From an uncultured Lewinella sp. (lineage in GTDB: Bacteria; Bacteroidota; Bacteroidia; Chitinophagales; Saprospiraceae): DNA of 37,277 nucleotides. The notes beneath the pieces were generated by a model. That model searched no databases. It worked only from the letters and a program-made list of their open reading frames with translations, and was not told the origin of the DNA. Position 1 is the first letter of the stretch; each line of letters opens with the position of its first letter. A program made the translations under genes and the position numbers. Shown here one piece after another: positions 1,477 to 37,277 of the stretch. The DNA lies in the NCBI GenBank assembly GCA_913056515.1, contig CAJXMP010000008.1, positions 1 through 37,277 on the forward strand, in the 5' to 3' direction.

Positions 1477-4400
1477 TTATAATGAATCTCTACCCTGTTT
1501 AAGTTCATCTAAAAACTCTTTGGCTTCTTTTAAATTAGGAATTCCCTCTTTAATTACAATCAAATTCTTAGGAGTTTGCTTGAATTTCAAGCCTAGTTTG
1601 TAACCCGATTTCACGATAAAATCAAATAACTTTTGGAATCCCTCCGTTTCATAGTACATGGATTGTGGGTTTTCTACAAAGAAGCATCTCATTTTCTCAT
1701 TCTTTATTATTAATCGTTCGAAGCCGAGGTCTTTACAAATCCATCTGAGTTTTAAACCATCAAACAATTCATAAACTTGTGGTGGGATTTTACCAAAGCG
1801 ATCTGTTAATGATTGAGCGAATTGATCCAAATCTTCTGCCGATTTGAGGTTATCTAGTTTGGTGTATAAATTCAGCCTTTCTTGAATGTTGGAAACATAT
1901 TCATCGGGTATGAGCATTTCCACATCTGTTTCCATATGAACTTCCTTGACAAAGGATTTTTTGGACTCCATTTCTTCTTTGAACAACTCCTTAAAGGCGT
2001 TTTCTTTAAGTTCCTGAATGGCTTCCTCTAAGATTTTTTGATAAGTTTCATATCCAATTTCATTTAAGAAACCACTTTGTTCACCACCTAAAAGATTTCC
2101 TGCCCCTCTGATATCCAAATCTCTCATGGCAATATTAAATCCAGAGCCCAAATCACTATATTCTTCCAATGTTTTCAGTCGTTTTCTAGCCTCCTGGGTC
2201 AGGGTAGACATTGGTGGACAGAATAGATAACAGAATGCCTTTTTGTTTGATCGGCCCACTCTTCCCCTTAATTGATGGAGGTCACTCATTCCAAATTGAT
2301 GCGCATTATTAATAATTATGGTATTCGCATTTGGAATGTCTAAGCCAGTTTCAATAATGTTAGTAGAAATTAATACATCATATTTCCGATCGATAAAGTC
2401 TAAGAGGACACGCTCCAAATCTTTACTTTCCATCTGGCCATGTGCTACAGCTATGTCAATATCTGGGCATAACCTTTTCACCATCGTGGCAATATCTTGT
2501 AGGGATTTCACTCTATTGTGTACAAAAAATACTTGTCCACCTCGGTTGACTTCATAGTAAATAGATTCTTTAATGATACGATCACTAAAGACCCTTACTT
2601 CTGTATGTATGGGTTGTCTATTGGGTGGTGCTGTTCGAATAACGGATAAGTCTCTTGCAGCCATTAAGGAAAATTGTAAGGTTCGTGGGATTGGAGTTGC
2701 AGTTAGGGTTAAGGTATCCACATTTACTTTAATATTCCTCAATTTTTCCTTTGCGGAAACGCCAAATTTTTGCTCTTCATCAATCACAAGCAAGCCTAGG
2801 TCTTTAAATTCTACCTGTTTGTTCAGGATGGAATGCGTACCAATTAATATGTCTAATTTTCCAGACTTTAGTCTTTCGTAAATTTCTTTCTTTTGTTTGT
2901 TGGTTTTGAATCTGTTGACATAATCTACTGTGACACCAAAGGATTCCAATCTACCATTAAAGGTTTTGAAGTGCTGTAATGCTAGTATGGTCGTAGGAAC
3001 TAAAATGGCTGCCTGTTTTCCAGAAACCACGGCTTTAAATGCTGCCCGTACGGCTATTTCAGTTTTCCCAAAGCCTACATCTCCGCAGACCAATCGGTCC
3101 ATGGGGTGCGGTTTGACCATATCCGCTTTAACATCATTAGTTGCCGTAAGTTGATCCGGAGTATCTTCATATAAAAAGGATGCCTCTAGCTCATTTTGAA
3201 GGTATCCATCTGCTTCAAATGCAAAACCTGGACTGGCCTTTCTTTTGGCATATAACTTGATCAGTTCGGCAGCAATATCTTTTACGCGTTTCTTGGCTTT
3301 TGATTTAGTGTTTTTCCAGGCTTCTGAACCTAGTTTATTGAGTGAAGGCACTGTCCCTTCCTTAGACGAGTATTTTGAAATTTTATGTAACGAGTTGATA
3401 CTCACATAGAGTACATCTCTGTTTTTATAAAAAAGTCTAACGGACTCCTGGGTGTGCCCATTTATATTCAATTTTTCTAATCCAGAGAATTGACCAACTC
3501 CATGGTCAATATGGGTGACAAAATCACCAGGTTTAAGCTCCCTCAACATTTTTATGTTTAAAGCTTTATCCTTGGAAAAGCCTTTCCTAAGCTTGAATCT
3601 GTGGAATCTCTGGAAAATTTGATGGTCTGTATAACAAGCAATGCCCAAGTTTTTAGATAGGAATCCTGCACTTAAACTTTTGAGTATAGGTATGAACGTT
3701 ATACTTGCTTCCAAGTCAGCAAAAATGGCATAAAAACGTTCAACTTGCTTGGGGTTATCTGTGAAGATATAATTCTTGATCCCATTGGATGTATTGTTCT
3801 GAAGATCTTGAATTAATAGTTTAAAGTTTTTATTAAAATTTGGTTGAGGTTGAATATCAAATGCTAGTGTTTGTTGGGCGATAACTCCATGGTGATTGGT
3901 ACCATAGCTAATCAATTTGAAGTTTTGAATTTGATCACTGATATCAGCAGGTTGAATGAAGGCTCTATCTTTAAAAATTTCTTCACTTTCTCCACGGTCT
4001 AGCAGCGAGACTTCCTCTTCAAAGAGTTCTGCCTTTTCCAAGCAATTCTTCAACCGCTCACCACAGTTATGGATGTCATTAATCCATATGATATCATCTT
4101 GCCCTAAGACCTCCAAGATGGATACCTTTTCCTCTTGTTTGAATTGCGTATTGATATTCGGTACTAAAGTTATCCGGTGGATATTTTTAACTGATAATTG
4201 ATTGGATGGATCAAAGAATCGAATACTTTCCACTTCATCATCAAATAACTCTAATCGATAGGGGTATTCATTTCCGTACGAAAATAAATCAATAATTCCC
4301 CCTCTGATAGCATATTGTCCAGGTTCATAAACGAAGTCTTCTTGGGTAAAACCAAACTCATTCAAGGTGTAGATCATGGCCTCTACATCTAGTGACTCTC

Positions 4401-4926: not shown

Positions 4927-6591
4927 TTATTTTTCTTCTCGAAGCGCTCTTCTTAGAATCTTACCTACATTTGTTTTAGGTAGCTCATCTCTAAACTCAA
5001 TTTCTTTAGGCACTTTATAACCTGTAAGCCCTTCTCGACAATATTCTAATAGTTCTTTTTCTTTTAATGACTTATCCTTTTTAACGACAAAGATCTTAAC
5101 GACTTCTCCAGACTTCTCATGAGGTATACCTATTGCTGCTACCTCAAGTACTTTTTCGTTAGAAGCTACAAAGTCTTCAATTTCATTGGGATAAACATTG
5201 AATCCAGATACTAATATCATATCCTTTTTACGGTCTACAATTTTGAAGAATCCATCTGCTTGCATGACACCAATATCTCCGGTGCAAAGCCATCCATCCT
5301 TGATTGTATCAGCGGTAGCATCAGGACGATTATAATATCCCTTCATTACCTGAGGTCCTTTGGTTTGGATTTCGCCGACTTCTCCTTGAGGAAGTGGTTT
5401 TCCAGCATCATCTACTATTCGTACATCTGTAGATGGAACAGGCATACCAATCGTACCAATCTGTCCGGTCTCATCTAATGGATTACATGAGATAACTGGA
5501 GATGCTTCGGTCATTCCGTAGCCTTCAGATAATGGGACTCCAGTAATTTGCTGCCATTTTTCTGCAACAGGTCGTTGTACTGCCATACCACCACCTACAG
5601 TGACTTTTAAATTGGAAAAATCCAGTTCAGTAAAGGCTTTATTATTGAGTAGGGCGTTGAATAAGGTGTTGACACCTGTTATTAATGTTGGAGGATCTGC
5701 CTTCATAGCAGAAACGACAGATTTCAAATCTCTAGGATTAGTAATCAGAATCGTTTTTGTTCCAATAGACATTAATGCTAAACCATTTACTACAAAAGCA
5801 AAGATGTGGTACATAGGTAGCGGTGACAAAGCGACTTCTTCCTTTTCTTTCAAGAAAGGCATCATGATACTTCTAATTTGAAGCATATTGGCTACCAAGT
5901 TTTTATTCGTGAGCATGGCTCCTTTGGATACACCTGTGGTTCCACCTGTATACTGAAGTAAGATTACATCTTCAGGATCTCCTGTTACAGTGTTGAGTTT
6001 GTATTTCTTTCCTTGTGCTAATGCCTCTTTGAAAGAGTCAGTATTGTTTAAGGTAAAGGCTGGCACCATTTTTTTAACCTTGCGAACCACAAAGTTGGTT
6101 AGTACACCTTTAACCCCTCCTAATAACTCTCCAATACTAGTAACTACAATATTTTTGATGCCTGTATCATTGATGATTTTTTCCAAATTATGGGCAAAGT
6201 TTTCACAAATGACAATGGCTTTTGCTTCCGAGTCTTTGAATTGATGATGCATTTCACGTGCTGTATACAAAGGGTTGGTGTTGACCACCACTAGTCCCGC
6301 CCTTAATGCACCAAACAAGGCAATAGGGTACTGCAATAAGTTGGGCATCATCAAGGCAATTTTATCTCCTTTTTCTAAGCCTTTTTGTTGAAGATATGCT
6401 CCAAAAGCGTATGACTTAGCGTCTAATTCTTTAAAGGTAATCTGTGCCCCCATACATTTAAAGGCGACCTGATCGGGATACTTTTTGAATGTTTCTTCTA
6501 CCATAGACACTAATGTTGGGTAAGTGTCTGGATTTATTTTCACTGGAACTCCAGATGGATAGTTCTCTAACCAAATTTTATTTTCGCTCAT
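4927..6591 (-). CDS. fadD: Long-chain fatty acid--CoA ligase (FadD-type)
   Basis: This enzyme activates long-chain fatty acids to acyl-CoA with ATP through an acyl-adenylate, for beta-oxidation or lipid synthesis. Its 554 residues match FadD. Visible motifs of the ANL superfamily: the P-loop LLQYTGGTTGVSKGAML near residues 209-225, GYGMTEASP near 356, the GWLCTGDIG aspartate region near 434, the hinge DRKKDMILVSGFNVYPNEIE, and the C-terminal catalytic lysine K544 in GKILRR. The N-terminal stretch (INPDTYPTLVSMVEE and KYPDQVAFKCMG) resembles the proteobacterial FadD branch, as far as I can judge from memory. It stands alone, with its own terminator downstream and a possible promoter about 70-95 nt upstream. 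Acyl chain preference cannot be read from sequence. Confidence 0.95.
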   Translation of the reverse strand: MSENKIWLENYPSGVPVKINPDTYPTLVSMVEETFKKYPDQVAFKCMGAQITFKELDAKSYAFGAYLQQKGLEKGDKIALMMPNLLQYPIALFGALRAGLVVVNTNPLYTAREMHHQFKDSEAKAIVICENFAHNLEKIINDTGIKNIVVTSIGELLGGVKGVLTNFVVRKVKKMVPAFTLNNTDSFKEALAQGKKYKLNTVTGDPEDVILLQYTGGTTGVSKGAMLTNKNLVANMLQIRSIMMPFLKEKEEVALSPLPMYHIFAFVVNGLALMSIGTKTILITNPRDLKSVVSAMKADPPTLITGVNTLFNALLNNKAFTELDFSNLKVTVGGGMAVQRPVAEKWQQITGVPLSEGYGMTEASPVISCNPLDETGQIGTIGMPVPSTDVRIVDDAGKPLPQGEVGEIQTKGPQVMKGYYNRPDATADTIKDGWLCTGDIGVMQADGFFKIVDRKKDMILVSGFNVYPNEIEDFVASNEKVLEVAAIGIPHEKSGEVVKIFVVKKDKSLKEKELLEYCREGLTGYKVPKEIEFRDELPKTNVGKILRRALREEK

Positions 6592-26521: not shown

Positions 26522-27535
26522 ATGGATTTAGTCAGCATCAAGTTCGCAGAAATACTCGCAACTTTTTGTGATGAGTCCATTGATTCGATTACACCACTTG
26601 AGCAATCTGGTTCTAGTCGAACCTATTATAGAATACATACCTCTTCGGCTTCATATATTGGGACACAGGGTCTGGATGTTTCTGAGAATTTAGCTTTTAT
26701 TTATTTTTCAAAACATTTTTCATCCTCAGGTATTCGTGTACCTCAAGTTTTAGGTCAAAGTGCCGATAACCGATTCTATATACAAGAAGACCTAGGTGAT
26801 CAATCGCTGTATCAGTTACTACTTTCAGGGACTTTCGCTCATTCCAATCAACTATATCAATACTATCAGGAAGCCATTGATTTATTGGTTGAAGTGCACA
26901 CGAAAGGCAGTCAACACATCAATTTCAGTCAATGTTATCCTACTGCTGAATTTAATCAACGCGCCATTGCTTGGGATTTGGATTATTTTAAATATTATTT
27001 TCTCAAGCTAAATGATATCGTTTTTGATGAGTATGCATTATATGGTGAGTTTGATGTTTTAACTCAAGCTGCTGCTGCAATTGAACGACCGAGTTTTATG
27101 GTTAGAGATTTTCAATCTAGGAATATCATGTTGGCAGGAGATAAGCTTGCATTTATAGACTTCCAGGGTGGACGGAAGGGACCATTGCAATACGATTTGG
27201 TTTCTTTGTTGTGGCAAGCTAAGGCCAATTTACCTATGGATTGGAAGGAGTCCTTAAAAGATTATTACTTTAATCAAATACGGTTGTTTTACCAGCAAGA
27301 TAAAGCTGATTTTGAGAAAGGCTATTGGTTGTTTATTTTGATTAGAACGATGCAGGTTTTAGGGGCTTATGGATTAAGAGGGATTGTACAACGAAAGGAA
27401 CATTTCTTACAAAGTATCCCTTTTGCTTTGGAAAATCTGAGATACCTCTTAGAAGAGCAATATGATCAGTTACCAGATATTCCTAGTATTCGTCAAGTAT
27501 TTTTGAATTATTATAAACAATATCAACATGTCTAA
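26522..27535 (+). CDS. APH-family phosphotransferase, AmgK-like sugar kinase
   Basis: The protein (337 residues) belongs to the aminoglycoside phosphotransferase/choline kinase fold. The catalytic loop VRDFQSRNIML carries D196 and N201, and the Mg-binding D213 is in LAFIDFQGG. The continuation RKGPLQYDLVSLLWQAKANL is typical of AmgK-type kinases, which phosphorylate MurNAc or GlcNAc at C1 in peptidoglycan recycling. The N-terminal lobe has a nucleotide-binding pattern (SGSSRTYYRIHTSSA). Antibiotic resistance is not indicated. It is 2 nt after obg and overlaps the RapZ-like gene by 8 nt, so it is translationally coupled. The usual partner MurU nucleotidyltransferase is not in the window. The sugar specificity is an inference. 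Confidence 0.85.
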   Translation: MDLVSIKFAEILATFCDESIDSITPLEQSGSSRTYYRIHTSSASYIGTQGLDVSENLAFIYFSKHFSSSGIRVPQVLGQSADNRFYIQEDLGDQSLYQLLLSGTFAHSNQLYQYYQEAIDLLVEVHTKGSQHINFSQCYPTAEFNQRAIAWDLDYFKYYFLKLNDIVFDEYALYGEFDVLTQAAAAIERPSFMVRDFQSRNIMLAGDKLAFIDFQGGRKGPLQYDLVSLLWQAKANLPMDWKESLKDYYFNQIRLFYQQDKADFEKGYWLFILIRTMQVLGAYGLRGIVQRKEHFLQSIPFALENLRYLLEEQYDQLPDIPSIRQVFLNYYKQYQHV

Positions 27536-27938
27536 ACTGCATATTTATATCTATTCTTTTTCGTATCGCAATGGATTTCCTGTAGATGATCATGGGCATG
27601 GTGGTGGTTTTGTATTTGATTGCAGAGGGATTCATAATCCTGGCCGTTTTGAACCGTATAAAAAATTGACAGGAAGAGATCAGGCTGTGAAAGATTTTTT
27701 GGTAGAAGAGTCCAAGATTGAGGAATTCTTAGATGAGGTGTTTCCAGTTGTGGAGAGATCTGTAAAAAAATATATAGATCGTGGATTTGATGCGCTTTCT
27801 GTTTATTTTGGTTGTACTGGTGGACAACATCGTTCGGTATATTCTGCAGATGCATTAGGGAGTTATCTAAGTGATAACTATGATGTTGAAGTAGATGTGC
27901 ACCATATAGAGCAGGAAAAAAAGAACTGGATAAATTAA
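27528..27938 (+). CDS. Stand-alone RapZ C-terminal-like domain protein
   Basis: The 136 residues correspond only to the C-terminal half of RapZ (E. coli RapZ is 284). Visible are IYSFSYRNGFPVDDHGHGGG with FDCRGIHNPGR, then the phosphate-binding-like loop VYFGCTGGQHRSVYSADALG and a DVHHIEQEKK end. In E. coli this half binds GlmZ/GlmY small RNAs and glucosamine-6-phosphate. The N-terminal ATPase half is missing here without trace. The start overlaps the sugar kinase gene by 8 nt (ATGTCTAA), indicating coupling, and ElaA follows after 6 nt. The context suggests an amino-sugar or cell-wall link, not a proven role. Confidence 0.87.
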   Translation: MSKLHIYIYSFSYRNGFPVDDHGHGGGFVFDCRGIHNPGRFEPYKKLTGRDQAVKDFLVEESKIEEFLDEVFPVVERSVKKYIDRGFDALSVYFGCTGGQHRSVYSADALGSYLSDNYDVEVDVHHIEQEKKNWIN

Positions 27939-27944
27939 GTTGAG

Positions 27945-28391
27945 ATGCGTTTTCACATTTGTACATTTCAAGAACTTCAATTGGAAGAATTATATGCTTT
28001 CATGGCCCTACGCCAAGAAGTGTTTGTAGTTGAACAAGACTGTCCTTATTTAGATGCAGATGGGAAGGATCAACTTGGATGGCATGTTATGTTATTTGAT
28101 GAAAAAGGCCAATTAGGCGCATACACTAGACTTTTACCTCCAGGGGTGTCTTATGAAAAGTACAGTTCTATCGGTCGAGTAGTAAGTAGTGAACATGTAA
28201 GAGGTAAAGGGTATGGTAAAGCAGTGATGGAACGCAGTATTCAAGCCATCAAAGAATTATTCCCTGAAGCGGCCATAAAGATTTCCGCACAAACTTATCT
28301 ACTTAAATTTTACAATGATTTAGGCTTCCAAGAGGTAGGAGAAGAATATTTAGAAGATGATATTCCGCACATAGGAATGATCAGGGAATAA
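27945..28391 (+). CDS. elaA: GNAT family N-acetyltransferase, ElaA-like
   Basis: The 148 residues align by eye along their length with ElaA: ALRQEVFVVEQDCPYLDADG, LGAYTRLLPPG, IGRVVSSEHVRGKGYGKAVM (acetyl-CoA-binding motif A), LLKFYNDLGFQEVGEEYLED and DDIPHIGMIRE at the C-terminus. The GNAT substrate of ElaA is not known. It is the last gene of the adk operon, and a hairpin terminator spans its stop codon. Confidence 0.9.
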   Translation: MRFHICTFQELQLEELYAFMALRQEVFVVEQDCPYLDADGKDQLGWHVMLFDEKGQLGAYTRLLPPGVSYEKYSSIGRVVSSEHVRGKGYGKAVMERSIQAIKELFPEAAIKISAQTYLLKFYNDLGFQEVGEEYLEDDIPHIGMIRE

Positions 28392-28412
28392 GTCTATCCC
28401 CTGATCTATTTA
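28380..28412. terminator. Bidirectional terminator shared by elaA and the phosphohexomutase gene
   Basis: The inverted repeat gatcaggg/ccctgatc (inner arms aata-tatc) begins inside the last codons of elaA and its stop. The convergent minus-strand gene ends 5 nt beyond. There is no long T-run, so efficiency is uncertain. Confidence 0.6.
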
Positions 28413-28416
28413 TCTA

Positions 28417-29820
28417 TTAGTTCAAGAGACTTGTATGTGTAGCATCAAGAATTCGTCTAACCTCTTCATGTGTTGATCCTTGAGCATATACTCTAAGTAC
28501 AGGTTCCGTTCCTGATGGTCTAATCATAACCCATTTTCCTTCATCCAGTATAAATCGGTAACCATCAATATCTTGGGTGCCAATAATTGGATATGAACCA
28601 ATGGAGGTGATAGAACCTGCTTTACATTTTTCAATGATTTCTTGCTTTTTACTTTCTGCTAAGTGCAAATCATCTCTATCATATTCAAATGGTCCAACTA
28701 TAGCATAGATTTCTTCTAATAATTCGGTTAATGACTTTCCTGTTTTAGCCATGAACTCTAGAATAAGTAAACCCATCCATATACCATCTCTTTCAGGTAT
28801 ATGCCCTTTCACAGCTAGTCCACCTGATTCTTCTCCACCAACTAATAAGTCCGTATGAGTCATGATCTCTGCAATATATTTGAAGCCAATTTTGGTCACT
28901 TCAAAATCTAAATCATAATGTTCGGCTAGGGTTTTCATCTTATCGGTAACGGAGAAGGTTACAACTACTTTACCATCTTCTTTTTTGTATTCTTTCATAT
29001 ACTTGAGCAGCAGCAAAAGTAGTCTATGACTATCTACAAAATTTCCATTTTCATCATACATGCCAATTCGATCTGCATCACCATCATTAGCCAGTCCTGC
29101 ATGAATAGATGGATCGTTTTTAATGGTATTGGATAGCTCTGTTAAGTTTCTGTGTATAGGTTCAGGGGCCTGTCCATTGAAGGAAGGATTTACTTCACAA
29201 TGTAAGAATACTGAATCAGGTAGTAATCTTTTTACAGCAGATTGCCCTGCACCATACATCGCATCATAAGCTAATTTGATTCCTGCGTTTCTAATCAAAT
29301 CCATGTCAAAGTTTGCCTCCACATGGTCAATATACATTTGCTCTAGATCCATATACTCTAGTAGACCTTCAGCTTGTGCCTGTTCAACGGACATCACTGG
29401 AGTACTAGCTGTATCTGGAATCAATGCTTCTACTTCTGCAATTTGTGCGGGAATCATGGGACCACCTAAGCTGGATTTTAATTTATATCCGTTGTAATCT
29501 GGTGGATTATGGCTAGCTGTGATAACCACACCAAGCGTAGAGTTTGTTTTAAGGGTCGCCAATGAAACCATAGGAGTAGAGGCAAAGCGATCGGAAAGGA
29601 TCGATTTGATGCCTTTTGATGCTAATACACCAGCAGTTGTCTCTGCAAACATTTTACCTGCGAATCTGCAATCATAACCTATCACGGCAGAGTTACCTCC
29701 ATTTTTTAGGATCCAATCTGCTGTAGCTTCTGAAACTCTTCTTACATTTTCTACGGTGTAATCTTTTGCTATAATGGCTCTCCAGCCATCTGTACCAAAT
29801 TTGATTTTATTCATAAACAT
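28417..29820 (-). CDS. Phosphoglucomutase/phosphomannomutase family protein
   Basis: The 467 residues form the four-domain alpha-D-phosphohexomutase. The phosphoserine is S103 in VITASHNPPDYNGYKLK; the Mg-binding loop is D246, D248, D250 (NDGDADRIGM); the sugar loop is GEESGG at 329-334 followed by HIPERDGI; the phosphate-binding loop is RPSGTEPVLRVYA near the C-terminus. The enzyme interconverts 1- and 6-phosphates of glucose, mannose or amino sugars. The GEESGG loop fits Glc/Man mutases. Either Met at 29820 or the third codon (29814, MNKIKFGTDGWRAI) may be the start, and the latter fits family members better. It converges with elaA. Confidence 0.93.
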   Translation of the reverse strand: MFMNKIKFGTDGWRAIIAKDYTVENVRRVSEATADWILKNGGNSAVIGYDCRFAGKMFAETTAGVLASKGIKSILSDRFASTPMVSLATLKTNSTLGVVITASHNPPDYNGYKLKSSLGGPMIPAQIAEVEALIPDTASTPVMSVEQAQAEGLLEYMDLEQMYIDHVEANFDMDLIRNAGIKLAYDAMYGAGQSAVKRLLPDSVFLHCEVNPSFNGQAPEPIHRNLTELSNTIKNDPSIHAGLANDGDADRIGMYDENGNFVDSHRLLLLLLKYMKEYKKEDGKVVVTFSVTDKMKTLAEHYDLDFEVTKIGFKYIAEIMTHTDLLVGGEESGGLAVKGHIPERDGIWMGLLILEFMAKTGKSLTELLEEIYAIVGPFEYDRDDLHLAESKKQEIIEKCKAGSITSIGSYPIIGTQDIDGYRFILDEGKWVMIRPSGTEPVLRVYAQGSTHEEVRRILDATHTSLLN

Positions 29821-29966
29821 AATTTTGCTTGGGATTGTGGGTTATCCTCGCGTGCTTTTGTATTTTGCTTTCAAGTTTGCAAAGCAAAAATATAAATACT
29901 TTGGTCAAAGTCTTAGGAAATTGAGTATAGTTCCTTGGGTTCCACGATTAAATTACGGTAAAGTAC

Positions 29967-30614
29967 ATGAGAGATACCTACAGGCATAAGGGCATGAGGC
30001 GAAAGCTAGTTGAAGAACTGCGCGAAAAAGGAATACGAGATGAGCGAATTCTACAAGCATTTATGCAATTACCTAGGCATTATTTTTTAGATGATGCTTT
30101 TGATGAATGGGCCTATCAAGACAAACCTTTTCCAATAGGTAACGAGCAGACGATTTCTCAACCGTACACCGTTGCTTTTCAAACAGCTCTATTAAATGTT
30201 GAACCTGGTCAGAAGATACTGGAAATAGGAACTGGTTCCGGTTTTCAAGCGGCCATATTAGCACTATTGGGTGCCAATGTAAACACTATTGAGCGGCACC
30301 AAGAGTTGTCAGAGAAAGCAGAGTTGCTGTTGGGTAAGATAGGTATAAAGCGTGTGCGATGTTTTTTTGGGGATGGATATGTTGGTCTACCCAATTTGGC
30401 TCCTTTTGATCGTATCTTATTGACATGTGGTGCCAGCGAAATTCCAGAGGCCTTGTGTAAGCAATTGAAAATAGGTGGGCAGATGGTCGTTCCTGTTGGG
30501 GATAAAGTACAATCCATGTATCGTATTACGAGAACTAGCCCTCAAAGTTTTGAGCGGGAGCAGTTTGGCGATTTTCGTTTTGTTCCCTTTTTAAAAGGAA
30601 AAGCAGGGCAATAA
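29967..30614 (+). CDS. pcm: Protein-L-isoaspartate O-methyltransferase
   Basis: PCM methylates isoaspartyl residues to repair damaged proteins. The 215 residues have VEELREKGIRDERILQAFMQ, the hallmark NEQTISQPYTVAFQTALL, the SAM-binding motif I LEIGTGSGFQAAIL near residue 81, and post-motifs TCGASEIPEAL and GGQMVVPVGDK. A later Met (residue 10) could be the start, but the 29967 start is in line with Bacteroidota homologues as far as I can tell. The short upstream gap faces the phosphohexomutase gene. The stop lies within a hairpin shared with the convergent lipoprotein gene. Confidence 0.95.
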   Translation: MRDTYRHKGMRRKLVEELREKGIRDERILQAFMQLPRHYFLDDAFDEWAYQDKPFPIGNEQTISQPYTVAFQTALLNVEPGQKILEIGTGSGFQAAILALLGANVNTIERHQELSEKAELLLGKIGIKRVRCFFGDGYVGLPNLAPFDRILLTCGASEIPEALCKQLKIGGQMVVPVGDKVQSMYRITRTSPQSFEREQFGDFRFVPFLKGKAGQ

Positions 30615-30625
30615 CCCTGCTTCTA
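30599..30625. terminator. Bidirectional terminator between pcm and the lipoprotein gene
   Basis: The perfect stem agcaggg/ccctgct (loop caataa) lies over the pcm stop codon and 5 nt short of the convergent stop at 30630. A-rich and T-rich flanks suit either direction. Confidence 0.7.
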
Positions 30626-30629
30626 TATG

Positions 30630-31169
30630 CTAATCATTCACTGTTCTACCTTTGGCCCTTTTGGTATTATAATTGGTTATGTCTGTTTTCTTGATGTCAA
30701 TCATTAATCCGGATAACATCCGATTAGCATTGACAAAATATTTAGTGCTACCGTAGGTAACCTTTCCTTTTCGTCTATCCCACTCTGAGGCTAACAGAAT
30801 GTATCGCCCATTGGCTTTTGGATTAGGGCCAAAGATTAAGAATTTTGAATCGTCTGTCGCATCAAAGGAAACGGCTATTTGATTTTTGGACGGTTGAAAG
30901 AGCATAACCCCTTTTGTACCTTTTTGAATAACAATCTCTTTGATGTTTCGTCCTGATTCAACATTGACCTCACCATTTTCAATGTTGGAGCGTTTGCCAG
31001 TTTGAATCTGGCGTAAGACTATATCTTCGCTAGCATAAAACTGAATTTTCTTGAGGTCATTTTCATTCCAATTATATTGCTCAACCATATCTTGTGTAAA
31101 CATCTGGTAAGAGTGGCAAGAGCTTAGGCTAAGCATTAGAACCAACAATAACAAACTTAATCTATACAT
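30630..31169 (-). CDS. Conserved lipoprotein of unknown function
   Basis: The 179 residues start with a lipoprotein signal ending at C18 (LMLSLSSCHSY). The mature part includes YNWNENDLKKIQFYASEDIV, several short beta-type stretches (VVIQKGTKGVMLFQP-like region near residue 88), SFDATDDSKFLIFGPNPKAN and GKVTYGSTKYFVNANRM. I do not recognise an assigned family; similar lipoproteins are found in other Bacteroidota. Its neighbour tadA is upstream on the same strand after 81 nt, so they may be cotranscribed. Confidence 0.75.
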   Translation of the reverse strand: MYRLSLLLLVLMLSLSSCHSYQMFTQDMVEQYNWNENDLKKIQFYASEDIVLRQIQTGKRSNIENGEVNVESGRNIKEIVIQKGTKGVMLFQPSKNQIAVSFDATDDSKFLIFGPNPKANGRYILLASEWDRRKGKVTYGSTKYFVNANRMLSGLMIDIKKTDITNYNTKRAKGRTVND

Positions 31170-31250
31170 AGGGCTTTTTATTTTAAATATAGGCTTGGGG
31201 CGATTATCATGCCTTTTCTTAAAACTATTTAACTAGGGTTTTAAATAATT

Positions 31251-31688
31251 TTAACGCCTTTTAGCAAAAAAGGACTTTAATAGTGTGCTGCAAGAAGCGT
31301 CTAAAATACCCGGAACAACTTGAGTTTTAGGATGTAATAGACTTTCATTAAAGCGCATACAGCCTCTTTTTTCGTCATAGGCACCAAAGACGATTCGCCC
31401 AATTTGTGACCAATAAAGTGCTCCAGCGCACATCACACAGGGCTCTAAAGTAACATACAAGGTGCATTCATTTAAATACTTGCTATTAAGTGCATGGGAA
31501 GCTGCTGTAATGGCTAAGAGTTCTGCATGTGCAGACACGTCCTTCAATTGCTCTGTTTGATTGTGGGCCTTAGCTAGAATCTGGTGATTAGATACAATGA
31601 GAGCACCTACAGGAATTTCACCTGCATCATGTGCTTTTTGAGCTTCTTTAAGCGCCAGCTTCATGTAATATTCATCATTTAGAATCAT
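31251..31688 (-). CDS. tadA: tRNA-specific adenosine deaminase TadA
   Basis: TadA converts A34 to inosine in tRNA-Arg(ACG). The 145 residues contain the zinc and catalytic residues H54 and E56 (VSAHAELLAI) and C84, C87 (EPCVMCAGALYWSQI), with the following RIVFGAYDEKRGCM. The protein is of normal length for the tadA/nucleoside deaminase subfamily, although guanine deaminase relatives share this motif. tRNA-Arg is not in the window. It faces away from guaB. Confidence 0.92.
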   Translation of the reverse strand: MILNDEYYMKLALKEAQKAHDAGEIPVGALIVSNHQILAKAHNQTEQLKDVSAHAELLAITAASHALNSKYLNECTLYVTLEPCVMCAGALYWSQIGRIVFGAYDEKRGCMRFNESLLHPKTQVVPGILDASCSTLLKSFFAKRR

Positions 31689-31774
31689 TCCTTAATTGCT
31701 TTAATGGTCACTTGACTTCATTTTTGTGAAAAAAAATCTGCTTCGGGTAAAATTTCAAATTAAATTAATAATAG

Positions 31775-33283
<1,509 letters not shown>

Positions 33284-33294
33284 ATCAGTGCTAT

Positions 33295-33732
33295 ATGCTT
33301 CGAGTTGACCATCAAGGTAAGATTTCAGCTGGGGAATTTGTTTTATTATACGATGGGATTTGTGTCTTATGCGAATCTTACATGCTCTTTTTGATGAAAA
33401 GAGATAAAAAGAAACAAGTTCGATTCGCTGCGTTACAATCTAACTTTGGACAGATGATTAAGGAGCAGTTGGAAGCGCAAGGAGCACAAGACTTAGATTC
33501 AGTTTTGTTAATTGATTCTAATGGGCAAGTATGGGTGAAGTCGGATGTAGCTTTACGAGTGAGTAAAACTATGTCTGGCCTCTGGCCTATGAGTCAAATA
33601 CTTTTGATTTTACCTAGAGGATTTCGTAATTCCATTTATGACTGGGTGGCGAGAAATAGGTATAAGTGGTTCGGGCAAAAAGAAGTCTGTGAAATTCCTT
33701 CGGCGGCAGATCGCATTCGTTTTCTAGAATAA
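33295..33732 (+). CDS. DCC-family (DUF393) thiol-disulfide protein
   Basis: The 145 residues have the DCC signature: LLYDGICVLCESYMLFLMKR with C23 and C26 and the preceding aspartate D20, then FAALQSNFGQMI. The fold is thioredoxin-like. The CxxC suggests redox activity, and partners are unknown. It lies 11 nt after guaB and 67 nt before asnS. The protein has no membrane anchor. Confidence 0.9.
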   Translation: MLRVDHQGKISAGEFVLLYDGICVLCESYMLFLMKRDKKKQVRFAALQSNFGQMIKEQLEAQGAQDLDSVLLIDSNGQVWVKSDVALRVSKTMSGLWPMSQILLILPRGFRNSIYDWVARNRYKWFGQKEVCEIPSAADRIRFLE

Positions 33733-33799
33733 TCAGAATAATTTCAAAATATTGGTATTTTCGCGTTAATCATTTAATGCACATCCAAAATTATTTGTA

Positions 33800-35233
33800 A
33801 TGGCAAAGCATACAGATATTGCAAGAGTCCTGGCAGAGCAAAAGACAGGCGAAAAAATAGAGGTTAAAGGTTGGGTAAGGGCTTTTAGAGCCAATCGATT
33901 CATTGCACTTAATGATGGAAGTGGTGCCAATAATCTTCAGGTCGTTGTAGATTTTGAGCAATTTGATGAAAGTGTTATTAAGGGCATTTCATTCCATTCT
34001 TGTATTGCAGTCTCTGGAACTTTAGTAGAATCTCAGGGAAGTGGTCAGGCCGTTGAATTACAAGCTGATACTATTGAAATTTTGGGTGGTAATGATTTAG
34101 AAAAATATCCATTGCAGCCGAAGCGCCAGACTATGGAGTTCTTAAGAGAAAATGCGCACTTCAGAATGCGTACGAATACCTTTAGCTCTGTTTTCAGATT
34201 GAGACACGCCCTAGCATTTGCAGTGCATAGCTTCTTTAATGAGGAAGGGTTTTATTATATGCATACTCCAATCATTACTGGATCCGATGCGGAGGGTGCT
34301 GGTGAGATGTTTCAAGTAACGACACTAGATGTAAAAGATTCACCTAAGACGGATGAGGGACAAGTAGATTATAGTCAAGATTTTTTCGGAAAGGCGACTA
34401 ACTTGACTGTATCTGGTCAGCTACAAGCTGAGATTGGTGCACTAGCTATGGGTAAAGTCTATACCTTTGGACCTACTTTTCGAGCAGAGAATTCAAATAC
34501 TTCTAGGCACTTAGCTGAGTTTTGGATGATTGAACCAGAGGTGGCATTCGCTGATCTGAAAGATAATATGGATTTAGCAGAGGCATTTGTGAAGTATTTA
34601 ATCAATTATGTATTGGACAAATACATGGATGATTTGAATATTCTAGATGCTAGAATACAGCAAGAAGAAAAGAATATGAAAGCGGAGCTTAGAAGGCCAA
34701 TGGGTCTTATAGAAACCCTTCGCTTTGTGGTAGATAATGAATTTGCACGAATTACTTACACGGAAGCTATAAATCTGCTTCGTTCTTCTAAGCCTTACAA
34801 AAAAGGTAGATTCGAATACGATGTAGAGTGGGGAGTAGATTTGCAGGCTGAGCATGAACGTTGGTTAGTGGAAAAGAAATTCCAAAAACCAGTGATTGTG
34901 ACAGATTATCCAAAGGACATTAAAGCATTCTATATGCGAATGAATGATGATGGAAAGACTGTAGCTGCCATGGATATTCTATTCCCAGGCATTGGGGAGG
35001 TAGTTGGTGGATCGCAGCGTGAAGAACGTTTAAATGTTCTAATGGATCGTATGACAGAGATGGATGTGCACCATGATGAGTTAGATTGGTATTTAGATTT
35101 AAGAAGATTTGGCGGAAATAAGCATGCTGGATTTGGACTTGGTTTTGAGAGAATCGTTCAATTTATCACCGGGATGACAAATATCCGCGATGTAATTGCC
35201 TTTCCTAGGACACCTGGCAGTGCTGAATTCTAA
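33800..35233 (+). CDS. asnS: Asparaginyl-tRNA synthetase
   Basis: AsnS charges tRNA-Asn. The 477 residues have an N-terminal OB-fold anticodon-binding domain (VKGWVRAFRANRFIALNDGS) and the class II catalytic core: motif 1 region FNEEGFYYMHTPIITGSDAE, motif 2 TFRAENSNTSRHLAEFWMIE, and motif 3 GFGLGFERIVQFITGM. The specificity loop GEMFQVTT fits AsnRS. A bidirectional terminator follows at 35251. It is the last typical Bacteroidota gene before the repeat region. Confidence 0.97.
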   Translation: MAKHTDIARVLAEQKTGEKIEVKGWVRAFRANRFIALNDGSGANNLQVVVDFEQFDESVIKGISFHSCIAVSGTLVESQGSGQAVELQADTIEILGGNDLEKYPLQPKRQTMEFLRENAHFRMRTNTFSSVFRLRHALAFAVHSFFNEEGFYYMHTPIITGSDAEGAGEMFQVTTLDVKDSPKTDEGQVDYSQDFFGKATNLTVSGQLQAEIGALAMGKVYTFGPTFRAENSNTSRHLAEFWMIEPEVAFADLKDNMDLAEAFVKYLINYVLDKYMDDLNILDARIQQEEKNMKAELRRPMGLIETLRFVVDNEFARITYTEAINLLRSSKPYKKGRFEYDVEWGVDLQAEHERWLVEKKFQKPVIVTDYPKDIKAFYMRMNDDGKTVAAMDILFPGIGEVVGGSQREERLNVLMDRMTEMDVHHDELDWYLDLRRFGGNKHAGFGLGFERIVQFITGMTNIRDVIAFPRTPGSAEF

Positions 35234-35250
35234 GGGTATGTATATCTGAT

Positions 35251-35286
35251 AAAAAAGGGCTAACGGATTCCGTTAGCCCTTTTTTT
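35251..35286 (+). terminator. Terminator after asnS
   Basis: A 10-bp GC-rich stem (gggctaacgg/ccgttagccc) has A6 on the left and T7 on the right, so it works in both directions. It lies 18 nt beyond the asnS stop. Confidence 0.92.
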
Positions 35287-35306
35287 GTAGTAATAGCAAT
35301 AAAAAA

Positions 35307-35325
35307 GGCCAACTCTAGGTTGGCC
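35307..35325 (-). terminator. Hairpin 1, minus-strand terminator-like
   Basis: The stem ggccaac/gttggcc with loop tctag is followed on the minus strand by six T (A6 at 35301-35306). There is no T-run on the plus side. An outer match of aatagca (35292-35298) and tgctatt (35331-35337) could extend it. Confidence 0.6.
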
Positions 35326-35345
35326 TCAAATGCTATTAAACAAAT

Positions 35346-35362
35346 TATAATCTCATGAAAAA
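35346..35362 (+). repeat. 17-bp motif copy 1
   Basis: tataatctcatgaaaaa, identical to copies at 35469 and 35765. Copy 1 and copy 2 share 24 bases including seven more on the left. The hairpin at 35307-35325 lies 20 nt upstream. Confidence 0.85.
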
Positions 35363-35431
35363 TGTTTCGTATATATAACTCAATTTCTTGAGTTTTAGTT
35401 TCTTAGTGCTTTTTTTAAGAGTTGTTAAAAA

Positions 35432-35454
35432 AGTCGCACCACTAAGGTGCGACT
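35432..35454 (-). terminator. Hairpin 2, minus-strand terminator-like
   Basis: The stem agtcgcacc/ggtgcgact with loop actaa is followed on the minus strand by a run of T (A-run at 35427-35432). No plus-strand T-run. Confidence 0.6.
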
Positions 35455-35468
35455 AGCTATCAACAAAT

Positions 35469-35485
35469 TATAATCTCATGAAAAA
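35469..35485 (+). repeat. 17-bp motif copy 2
   Basis: tataatctcatgaaaaa, 123 nt after copy 1. Hairpin 2 ends 14 nt before it. Confidence 0.85.
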
Positions 35486-35709
35486 AACTATATTCTTTAC
35501 TTGCAACTTTGGAATGGACTCCTCCATCATTTTGAAGGAGCATTCCACAAAATCTACTGTCGGTTTTTGAGTCACGTACCTCATCCAGAATTAGATCTTT
35601 GTGGTTTTGGGACGAAAAAATTGTAAGTGCTAATTTATTTTTCTCATAGAACCCAAGTTCCATAAGTAGACTTAAGCAAGTGTGTATTTCAAATTTTAAC
35701 CGCTAGAAT

Positions 35710-35732
35710 GAGGTCGGAATAAATCCGACCTC
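35710..35732. repeat. Hairpin 3, perfect inverted repeat
   Basis: The stem gaggtcgga/tccgacctc (9 bp, loop ataaa) has no adjacent T-run on either strand, unlike hairpins 1 and 2. It lies 32 nt before motif copy 3. Confidence 0.7.
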
Positions 35733-35764
35733 GATGTTTTAGTATAATCGGTTTTTGAGACTTA

Positions 35765-35781
35765 TATAATCTCATGAAAAA
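35765..35781 (+). repeat. 17-bp motif copy 3
   Basis: tataatctcatgaaaaa, 296 nt after copy 2. Bases left of the motif differ from copies 1 and 2. It is the last sign tying this side of the window to the asnS region before the change of origin. Confidence 0.8.
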
Positions 35782-35932
35782 AGCGGTTTATTATATCTTG
35801 ACAGCTCGTTTGCTGTACTTTTTAATGGTTAAGTAAGCTTGATTATTGTTGGATTTATATCCCTTTATTCCCGCTTACAATACAAATATGCAACCGAAAT
35901 GACAGCCGCTCAATGACAAATTTTAATTTTTG

Positions 35933-35961
35933 TTGAAAAAAAATGATATTAGCATTAAAAT
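35933..35961 (+). promoter_or_regulatory. Sigma-70 type promoter of rpsU
   Basis: TTGAAA (35933-35938), exactly 17 nt, TAAAAT (35956-35961) match the proteobacterial -35/-10 consensus (TTGACA/TATAAT) closely. This is not the Bacteroidota promoter form. The expected start is near 35968, about 31 nt before rpsU. Confidence 0.75.
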
Positions 35962-35998
35962 AGCGGACCTTAAACGAACTATTAACAAATAATAATTT

Positions 35999-36211
35999 AT
36001 GACAACAATTAAAGTAAAAGAGAACGAACCATTTGACGTTGCATTACGAAGATTTAAGCGTCTTGTTGAAAAAACAGGTCTTATGAATGATCTTCGTGCT
36101 AAAGAATTTTACGAAAAACCTACATGGGAGCGTAAAAGAAAAGCAGCGGCTGCGGTAAAAAGACAATATAGACGTCTTCGCAACCAAATGTTACCTCCAA
36201 AAATGTATTAA
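35999..36211 (+). CDS. rpsU: 30S ribosomal protein S21, betaproteobacterial type
   Basis: The 70 residues read as betaproteobacterial S21: [20 protein letters not shown], then REKE-type [20 protein letters not shown] and an ending [12 protein letters not shown]. Bacteroidota S21 is a different, shorter sequence beginning MLIIPIKDGE, as I recall it. S21 binds the 30S platform and helps initiation. A sigma-70 type promoter precedes it, and yqeY follows after 10 nt. Confidence 0.93.
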
Positions 36212-36221
36212 TCCCTCCGAG

Positions 36222-36665
36222 ATGTCGATCCGACAAACAATCTCAGATGATATGAAAACCTTCATGCGAGCCAAAGATACGGCTCGTCTTGGAGCTATTC
36301 GTCTTCTTCAGGCCTCAATTAAACAAAAAGAAGTTGATGAGAGAATTGAATTAAATGATGACCAAATTCTAGCTGTCATTCAAAAAATGCTTAAACAAAG
36401 AAAAGACTCAATCGAGGCTTATCAACAAGCGAATAGACAAGATTTGATTGATCAAGAACAATTAGAGATTGAAGTGCTAACCAAATATATGCCAGAACCA
36501 TTATCGGATGAAGAGATAAATCAATACATTGAAGAAGCAATAGCTACAACTGGAGCTGCTGATATGAAAGATATGGGTAAAGTCGTTGGTGTTCTCAAAT
36601 CAAAAGTAGCTGGCCGTGCCGATATGGGTGAAGTGTCAAAATTAGTCAGACAAAAACTCTCATAA
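36222..36665 (+). CDS. yqeY: GatB/YqeY family protein, betaproteobacterial type
   Basis: The 147 residues show the YqeY pattern: MRAKDTARLGAIRLLQASIK, KQKEVDERIEL, DDQILAVIQKMLKQRKDSIE, LTKYMPEPLSDEEI, and KDMGKVVGVLKSKVAGRADM ending in SKLVRQKLS. Related to the GatB tail, possibly a tRNA-interacting protein, but the function is not proven. The sequence resembles betaproteobacterial homologues rather than Bacteroidota ones. The order rpsU-yqeY-dnaG is the betaproteobacterial arrangement, with dnaG 42 nt downstream. Confidence 0.92.
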   Translation: MSIRQTISDDMKTFMRAKDTARLGAIRLLQASIKQKEVDERIELNDDQILAVIQKMLKQRKDSIEAYQQANRQDLIDQEQLEIEVLTKYMPEPLSDEEINQYIEEAIATTGAADMKDMGKVVGVLKSKVAGRADMGEVSKLVRQKLS

Positions 36666-36707
36666 ATCACTTATAAAAATTGAAATAATTTCAGTTATCA
36701 TTATGTG

Positions 36708-37019
36708 ATGATCCCTGAGTCATTTATTCAAGAAATCTTAAATCGAATTGACGTTGTCGATGTTGTTGATCAAAGAGTGAAACTAAAAAAAGCTGGAGCA
36801 AACTATGTTGCATGTTGCCCCTTTCATCAAGAAAAATCCCCCTCTTTCACAGTTAGCCCCTCCAAACAGTTTTATCATTGCTTCGGATGTGGCGCCCATG
36901 GATCCGCCATTAGTTTTTTGATGGAGTACGACGGATTAACATTTATTGAATCTGTTCAATCAATTGCAAATCAGCTTGGTTTAGCCGTCCCAAATGATCA
37001 ATCTAATGCTCAAAAAGGT
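36708..37019 (+). CDS. dnaG: DNA primase DnaG, N-terminal fragment (betaproteobacterial type)
   Basis: The frame begins at ATG 36708 (GTG at 36705 is also in frame). The first 104 residues are the N-terminal CHC2 zinc-binding domain of DnaG: IPESFIQEILNRIDVVDVVD, then C37, H40 (CCPFHQEKSPSFTVSP), C58 and C61 (FYHCFGCGAHGSAISFLMEY), and FIESVQSIANQLGLAVPND. Primase normally has about 580-640 residues, so the TOPRIM core and the helicase-binding domain are missing. The frame continues, without a stop, into ribF-like sequence near residue 105. It is thus a fragment joined to another gene, and cannot give a working primase. Confidence 0.92.
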
Positions 37020-37277
37020 AAGGCAGATGATTTTAAGTTAGAAGAAATTCCGCCACAAGATATTGAGGATAGTATAGTAAGTAGTACCAAAATTAGGAAG
37101 GCACTTTTAGATGGAGATGTTCATCTTGCAAAGGAATATTTGGGAGATTTATACACCATATCTGGTAATGTAGAAGAGGGTCTTCAGCGAGGTACGACTA
37201 TTGGTTATCCAACCGCAAATGTGAGAGTTGGAAGTAGCTTCAAGTTGATTCCCAAGAATGGTGTGTATGCAGTGTGG
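37020..37277 (+). CDS. ribF: Riboflavin kinase/FAD synthetase RibF, internal fragment (Bacteroidota type)
   Basis: From about codon 105 of the frame starting at 36708, the sequence reads FKLEEIPPQDIEDSIVSSTK, IRKALLDGDVHLAKEYLGDL, RGTTIGYPTANVRVG and KLIPKNGVYAVW. SSTKIR is the end of the FAD synthetase nucleotidyltransferase domain, and GYPTAN is the flavokinase signature. This is RibF from about residue 140 onward, of a Bacteroidota type. The first about 140 residues, with the HxGH nucleotide-binding motif, are not present. The window ends within the flavokinase domain, so the right end is also open. Confidence 0.88.

Follow-up and report, generated by a model that had tools for sequence, protein, structure and literature searches.

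A contig end in an uncultured Lewinella draft genome very probably joins DNA of three organisms

The right end of contig C8 in this Bacteroidota draft genome is almost certainly a chimera of three genomes produced by a short-read metagenome misjoin rather than by gene transfer, judging from sequence comparisons with relatives of all three putative parents. The window, by which we mean the whole stretch of DNA analysed, is the complete contig C8 with its 37,277 bases, and the block in question lies at its right end. The draft assembly to which it belongs (G000) comprises 3.19 Mb in 358 contigs and is 87.4% complete and 3.9% contaminated. Three parents with sharp limits can be told apart, each segment matching a different genome: the host body of the contig, a block of the OM43-b group of Methylophilaceae, and a fragment of ribF from another Bacteroidota. 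The features referred to below are as follows.

1–35944: host Bacteroidota contig body (ten ORFs of 26522–35233 scanned with Pfam; 1–26521 judged from the ORF list by eye)
33800–35233, plus strand: asnS, the last host gene, followed by an intergenic stretch common to the same-genus genomes G001 and G002
35925–35944: word at the left join, AATTTTTGTTGAAAAAAAAT; LSUCC0717 has it exactly, G001 and G002 each at 19/20, with the last 17 bases unbroken
35925–37050, plus strand: OM43-b (Methylophilaceae) block, comprising upstream region, rpsU, yqeY and a 5′ portion of dnaG, as delimited by DNA alignment to LSUCC0717
35999–36211, plus strand: rpsU, ribosomal protein S21 (OM43); TIGR00030 at 79 bits and PF01165; frame of 70 aa, identical in length in LSUCC0717
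36222–36665, plus strand: yqeY, YqeY-like protein (OM43); PF09424; 99% amino acid identity to LSUCC0717
36705–37277, plus strand: artefactual open frame running from the DnaG zinc ribbon (OM43) into the start of a RibF riboflavin kinase domain, open at the contig end
37030–37050: word at the right join, ATTTTAAGTTAGAAGAAATTC; dnaG of LSUCC0717 has it exactly, and G352 matches it at 15/21 at the homologous ribF place
37030–37277, plus strand: ribF fragment of a third organism, also Bacteroidota, for which G352 is the closest genome found (86% amino acid and 77% nucleotide identity)

Parents of the three segments

The host side of the left join was compared with G001 and G002, the only genomes labelled as the same genus among 40 (the host's own genome counted in). 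Host asnS is 90% and 89% identical to theirs at the amino acid level, and the intergenic DNA 3′ of the gene aligns with G001 as far as 35944. Contig C72 of G002 aligns over 35305–35944 at 82%, ending at the same base as G001. Both relatives are uninterrupted at this join: G001 and G002 are homologous to each other through the break point, at 77% over 1604 columns and without an insert, and the window departs from them at 35944. Related Bacteroidota with the same arrangement had been named in the original prediction as a finding that would speak against a chimera; the three-part arrangement is absent at the homologous place in G001 and G002.

From 35925 to 37050 the window aligns with LSUCC0717 (CP103436) without gaps, intergenic DNA included, with 1109 of 1126 bases identical (98.5%); KB13 DNA is 95.8% identical to the block. 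According to PMC10872708, LSUCC0717 is the reference for group OM43-b and clusters with KB13. Gene order in the rpsU-yqeY-dnaG locus of both strains is identical to that of the block. Ungapped identity to LSUCC0717 drops to 0.13–0.53 per 30 bases beyond the block limits. None of the 17 mismatches falls in the first 353 bases, which extend from the upstream region through rpsU into yqeY, and five of them cluster at 37010–37022, near the right join. The top two matches to YqeY, among the best 80 loci with one genome per species and further loci matching beyond these, are LSUCC0717 (99% amino acid identity) and KB13 (97%); identity of the block YqeY to the yqeY products of G001 and G002 is 35–38%. 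Unlike the locus in LSUCC0717 and KB13, the window has its dnaG broken off after 115 OM43 codons from a GTG start at 36705, whereas the locus of LSUCC0717 runs on into an intact dnaG, with a full-length frame of 579 aa.

The original prediction had recognised rpsU, yqeY and a 5′ part of dnaG as betaproteobacterial and had guessed at an OM43-type donor, and both statements are borne out by the profile matches and the LSUCC0717 alignment. Its sigma-70 promoter fared less well. A sigma-70-like site with 10/12 matches does exist at 35933–35961, is identical in LSUCC0717 and is part of the OM43 block, but it is one of 9 such sites in 35200–37277, where shuffles give 7.5 ± 2.7. On the reading favoured here, the block is without biological function in the host.

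At the right join the DNA match to G352 starts at 37030, where identity climbs from 0.17–0.37 to 0.67–0.83, and the match to LSUCC0717 stops at 37050. The right flank is short, with 227–248 bases before the contig ends. Matches to the ribF piece were found in 373 of 395 genomes of the class; G352 is the best of them, and the second and third best (76% and 74%) belong to the genus of G352. This genome carries the label 'same class', which places it outside the host's order. Compared with G001, G002 and LSUCC0717, the ribF part (37030–37277) agrees with neither the host genus nor OM43. We considered and rejected the piece as host ribF: C56 carries the full host gene, with 70% identity to G001 and G002, and the piece shares only 49% identity with the RibF encoded there.

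The limits of the foreign DNA, originally placed at 35880 and 37032, are therefore corrected to 35925/35944 and 37030/37050. The expected return to Bacteroidota at ~37.02 kb holds as far as the phylum is concerned but not for the host, the amino acid identity of the ribF piece being 86% to G352 against 47% to both G001 and G002 of the host genus. The view that the same kind of DNA stands on both flanks has to be abandoned, since the right flank comes from a third organism and three genomes are joined, not two.

The 21 bases of the right join encode F-K-L-E-E-I in dnaG, and G352 ribF has F-E-L-E-E-I in the same frame. Because the word is read in one frame in dnaG and in ribF, the hybrid DnaG-RibF frame stays open, and Pfam finds PF01807 at residues 4–98 and PF01687 at residues 146–191 of the frame at 36705–37277. 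The match of G352 to the word (15/21) is no better than its overall identity of 77%. A functional DnaG-RibF fusion was also considered and rejected, given that dnaG of LSUCC0717 is full-length, ribF of G352 is full (316-aa frame) and the join word lies in the same frame in both.

Host gene copies and other hybrid contigs

The original prediction had proposed looking in the same genome bin for independent host copies of the genes. This was successful for ribF, which is full-length on C56, and not for rpsU, which was not found as a host gene in the assembly contigs. Host yqeY is present on C14, with 80% and 76% identity to G001 and G002. The only S21 match in the assembly is the block's own; G001 and G002 each have one, in frames of 61–64 aa. 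In G001 the gene lies on contig C369 at 1105–1290 and adjoins a FIST-type gene, so named from a reading of its sequence. C205 begins inside the assembly copy of this FIST-type gene and, if the order is the same, ends ~335 bases short of rpsU. As C205 stops short of the rpsU site, a gap can explain the missing gene. C90 matches the other side of G001 rpsU, but the adjoining gene differs and synteny there is not fully clear. As a candidate right neighbour of C8, contig C252 carries a homologue of the next gene in G001 (74% over 625 columns), and C252 beyond that homologue gave no alignment to the intergenic DNA of G001.

A search with DnaG and RibF returned five contigs, of which three are hybrids (C8, C231 and C202). 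In C231, at 3178–4191, a single reading frame passes from a DnaG zinc ribbon to a universal stress protein. C28 starts with 156 bases that are 94% identical to the C231 dnaG and continues as a normal DnaG. At 1–1364 of C202, an E1/transketolase gene (30% GC) and an opposite-strand ribF-glycosyltransferase gene both lack their 3′ ends, the two breaking off within one stretch of ~45 bases. With only 46–47% identity between the RibF of this contig and those of G001 and G002, its Bacteroidota part is probably not the host's either.

We also surveyed every 20th contig from C80 to C340. Two of the 14 taken were all N, leaving 12 readable contigs in which ORFs were judged by eye and suspicious ones were run against Pfam. 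At least one of the 12 is a clear hybrid (C280), at least one has an adapter end (C180), and at least one looks foreign by eye over its whole length (C220). In C280, at 1703–3443, a SIR2 domain breaks off at position 91 of 180, beyond which the frame continues in an unrelated reading; with C231, this brings to two the other hybrids with in-frame joins. C180 terminates at 5832–5873 in untrimmed Illumina adapter. The adapter word, sought in the window and 23 loci (two of them all N), was present only in C180. The left end of C140 is odd by eye, and no Pfam family was found there. Since the other hybrid contigs are short (3.4–5.1 kb), little can be read from the fact that their joins lie less than 1.5 kb from an end.

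C220 itself encodes a phosphate-binding-like protein (PF12849) and a FrhB-like protein (PF04422, PF04432), and its GC content varies between 0.47 and 0.30 along the contig. Our guess is a phage or cyanobacterial source.

Misjoin, physical chimera or transfer

Under the assembly misjoin that we favour, the assembler would have lengthened host C8 at its right end by way of two false overlaps. Host sequence would have met a ~20-base word that a co-occurring OM43-b strain also carries upstream of rpsU; from there the path would have followed the OM43-b genome for ~1.1 kb. Within dnaG, a second word, of up to 21 bases and fitting the ribF of another Bacteroidota, would have diverted the path into that gene, where it stopped after ~230 bases. 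We infer that the assembly graph, and not a library or amplification step, was the source of the fault, that the sample was mixed, and that a small starting k of ~21 was used in the assembly. Shared words of this length are expected by chance between genomes of 3.2 Mb and 1.3 Mb with these compositions, namely ~33 20-mers and ~9 21-mers, in an estimate that assumes independent bases and is probably too low for AT-rich runs. With the exact parent strains, the true overlaps may fall short of 20 and 21 bases. Apart from C8 itself, the assembly matched the LSUCC0717 locus (6.4 kb searched) only in a 128-base stretch at 71%, and the G352 locus (3.2 kb searched) nowhere.

Shared k-mers are given as a cause of chimeric contigs, chiefly among closely related species, in PMC7299287. 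The end of C8 resembles the inter-genome chimeric contigs described there in its abrupt switch of genome, in join words that may fit both neighbours, in its position near a contig end and in the occurrence of several such contigs in one assembly. It differs in that three unrelated parents meet within ~1.4 kb and that one join keeps an open frame by chance.

A physical chimera, in which library ligation, PCR or multiple-displacement amplification linked DNA of the three organisms and the product was then correctly assembled, seems to us very unlikely. The adapter left at the end of C180 testifies to imperfect library handling, and joins at short homology are also known from amplification, both of which would suit such a product. 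It would nevertheless require two close physical joins, each with a ~20-base word fitting both sides, and a product abundant enough to assemble.

A real and very recent transfer of OM43 rpsU-yqeY-dnaG′ into the host, perhaps replacing host rpsU, would be of wider consequence, as it would make the OM43 gene the host's only source of S21 and mix ribosome parts across phyla, but we regard it as extremely improbable. Replacement would predict no S21 besides that of the block, and none was found in the assembly, with G001 and G002 having their own; a gap beside C205 can account for the missing host rpsU, the host keeps its own yqeY, dnaG is cut, the third-organism ribF on the far side demands a second transfer at the same spot, host DNA does not resume before the contig ends in the ribF piece, and G001 and G002 lack the arrangement at this place. 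No tRNA was found in the window by ARAGORN, and Rfam gave nothing at gathering score there. No mobility gene was recognised, either as a Pfam family in the block and the ten preceding ORFs (26522–35233) or by eye in the remaining window, and no direct or inverted repeats of at least 14 bases bracket the block.

At its end the contig switches twice within 1.4 kb, to two further genomes, each time at a word of ~20 bases that may fit both neighbours; transfer would hardly produce this pattern, and k-mer assembly of a mixed sample would do so readily. The original prediction had likewise preferred a chimeric join to a transfer, a choice upheld by the uninterrupted relatives, the origin of the right flank and the other hybrid contigs. 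The significance of the misjoin is that of a quality warning only: a naive reading of the draft would lead to false claims of transfer and to false fusion proteins (DnaG-RibF, DnaG-Usp), and contig ends of this draft need trimming or checking against reads.

Intergenic DNA downstream of asnS and a RibF fusion

The host stretch 3′ of asnS (35234–35944) resembles a tandem array of minus-strand small-RNA genes, a likeness to which the sequence lends modest support. A 24-base word is exactly repeated at 35339–35362 and 35462–35485, with a shorter copy at 35765–35782, and is found again, one mismatch apart, in three further genera that were searched. Terminator-like hairpins followed by T runs lie on the minus strand at 35327–35305 and 35454–35432. 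Mean column identity of the stretch to G001 and G002 is 84%, and 75 bases at 35533–35607 are unchanged. Of the 135 predicted base pairs, four show changes on both sides, and 10 cannot form in one of the sequences. The folding z-score of 35505–35625 is −2.7 on the minus strand and −1.5 on the plus strand. Rfam gave no family at gathering score for the stretch, with Bacteroidetes FopS (RF04319) at 21.4 bits against the 56 needed.

The host RibF on C56 (10547–12577, minus strand), comprising FAD synthetase and riboflavin kinase, is fused in frame with a family 2 glycosyltransferase. A limited literature search found no paper on such a fusion. RibF matches in seven of the eight relatives searched lie in frames of 685–732 aa, the frame in G011 having 349 aa, and these lengths suggest that the fusion may be general in the host's family.
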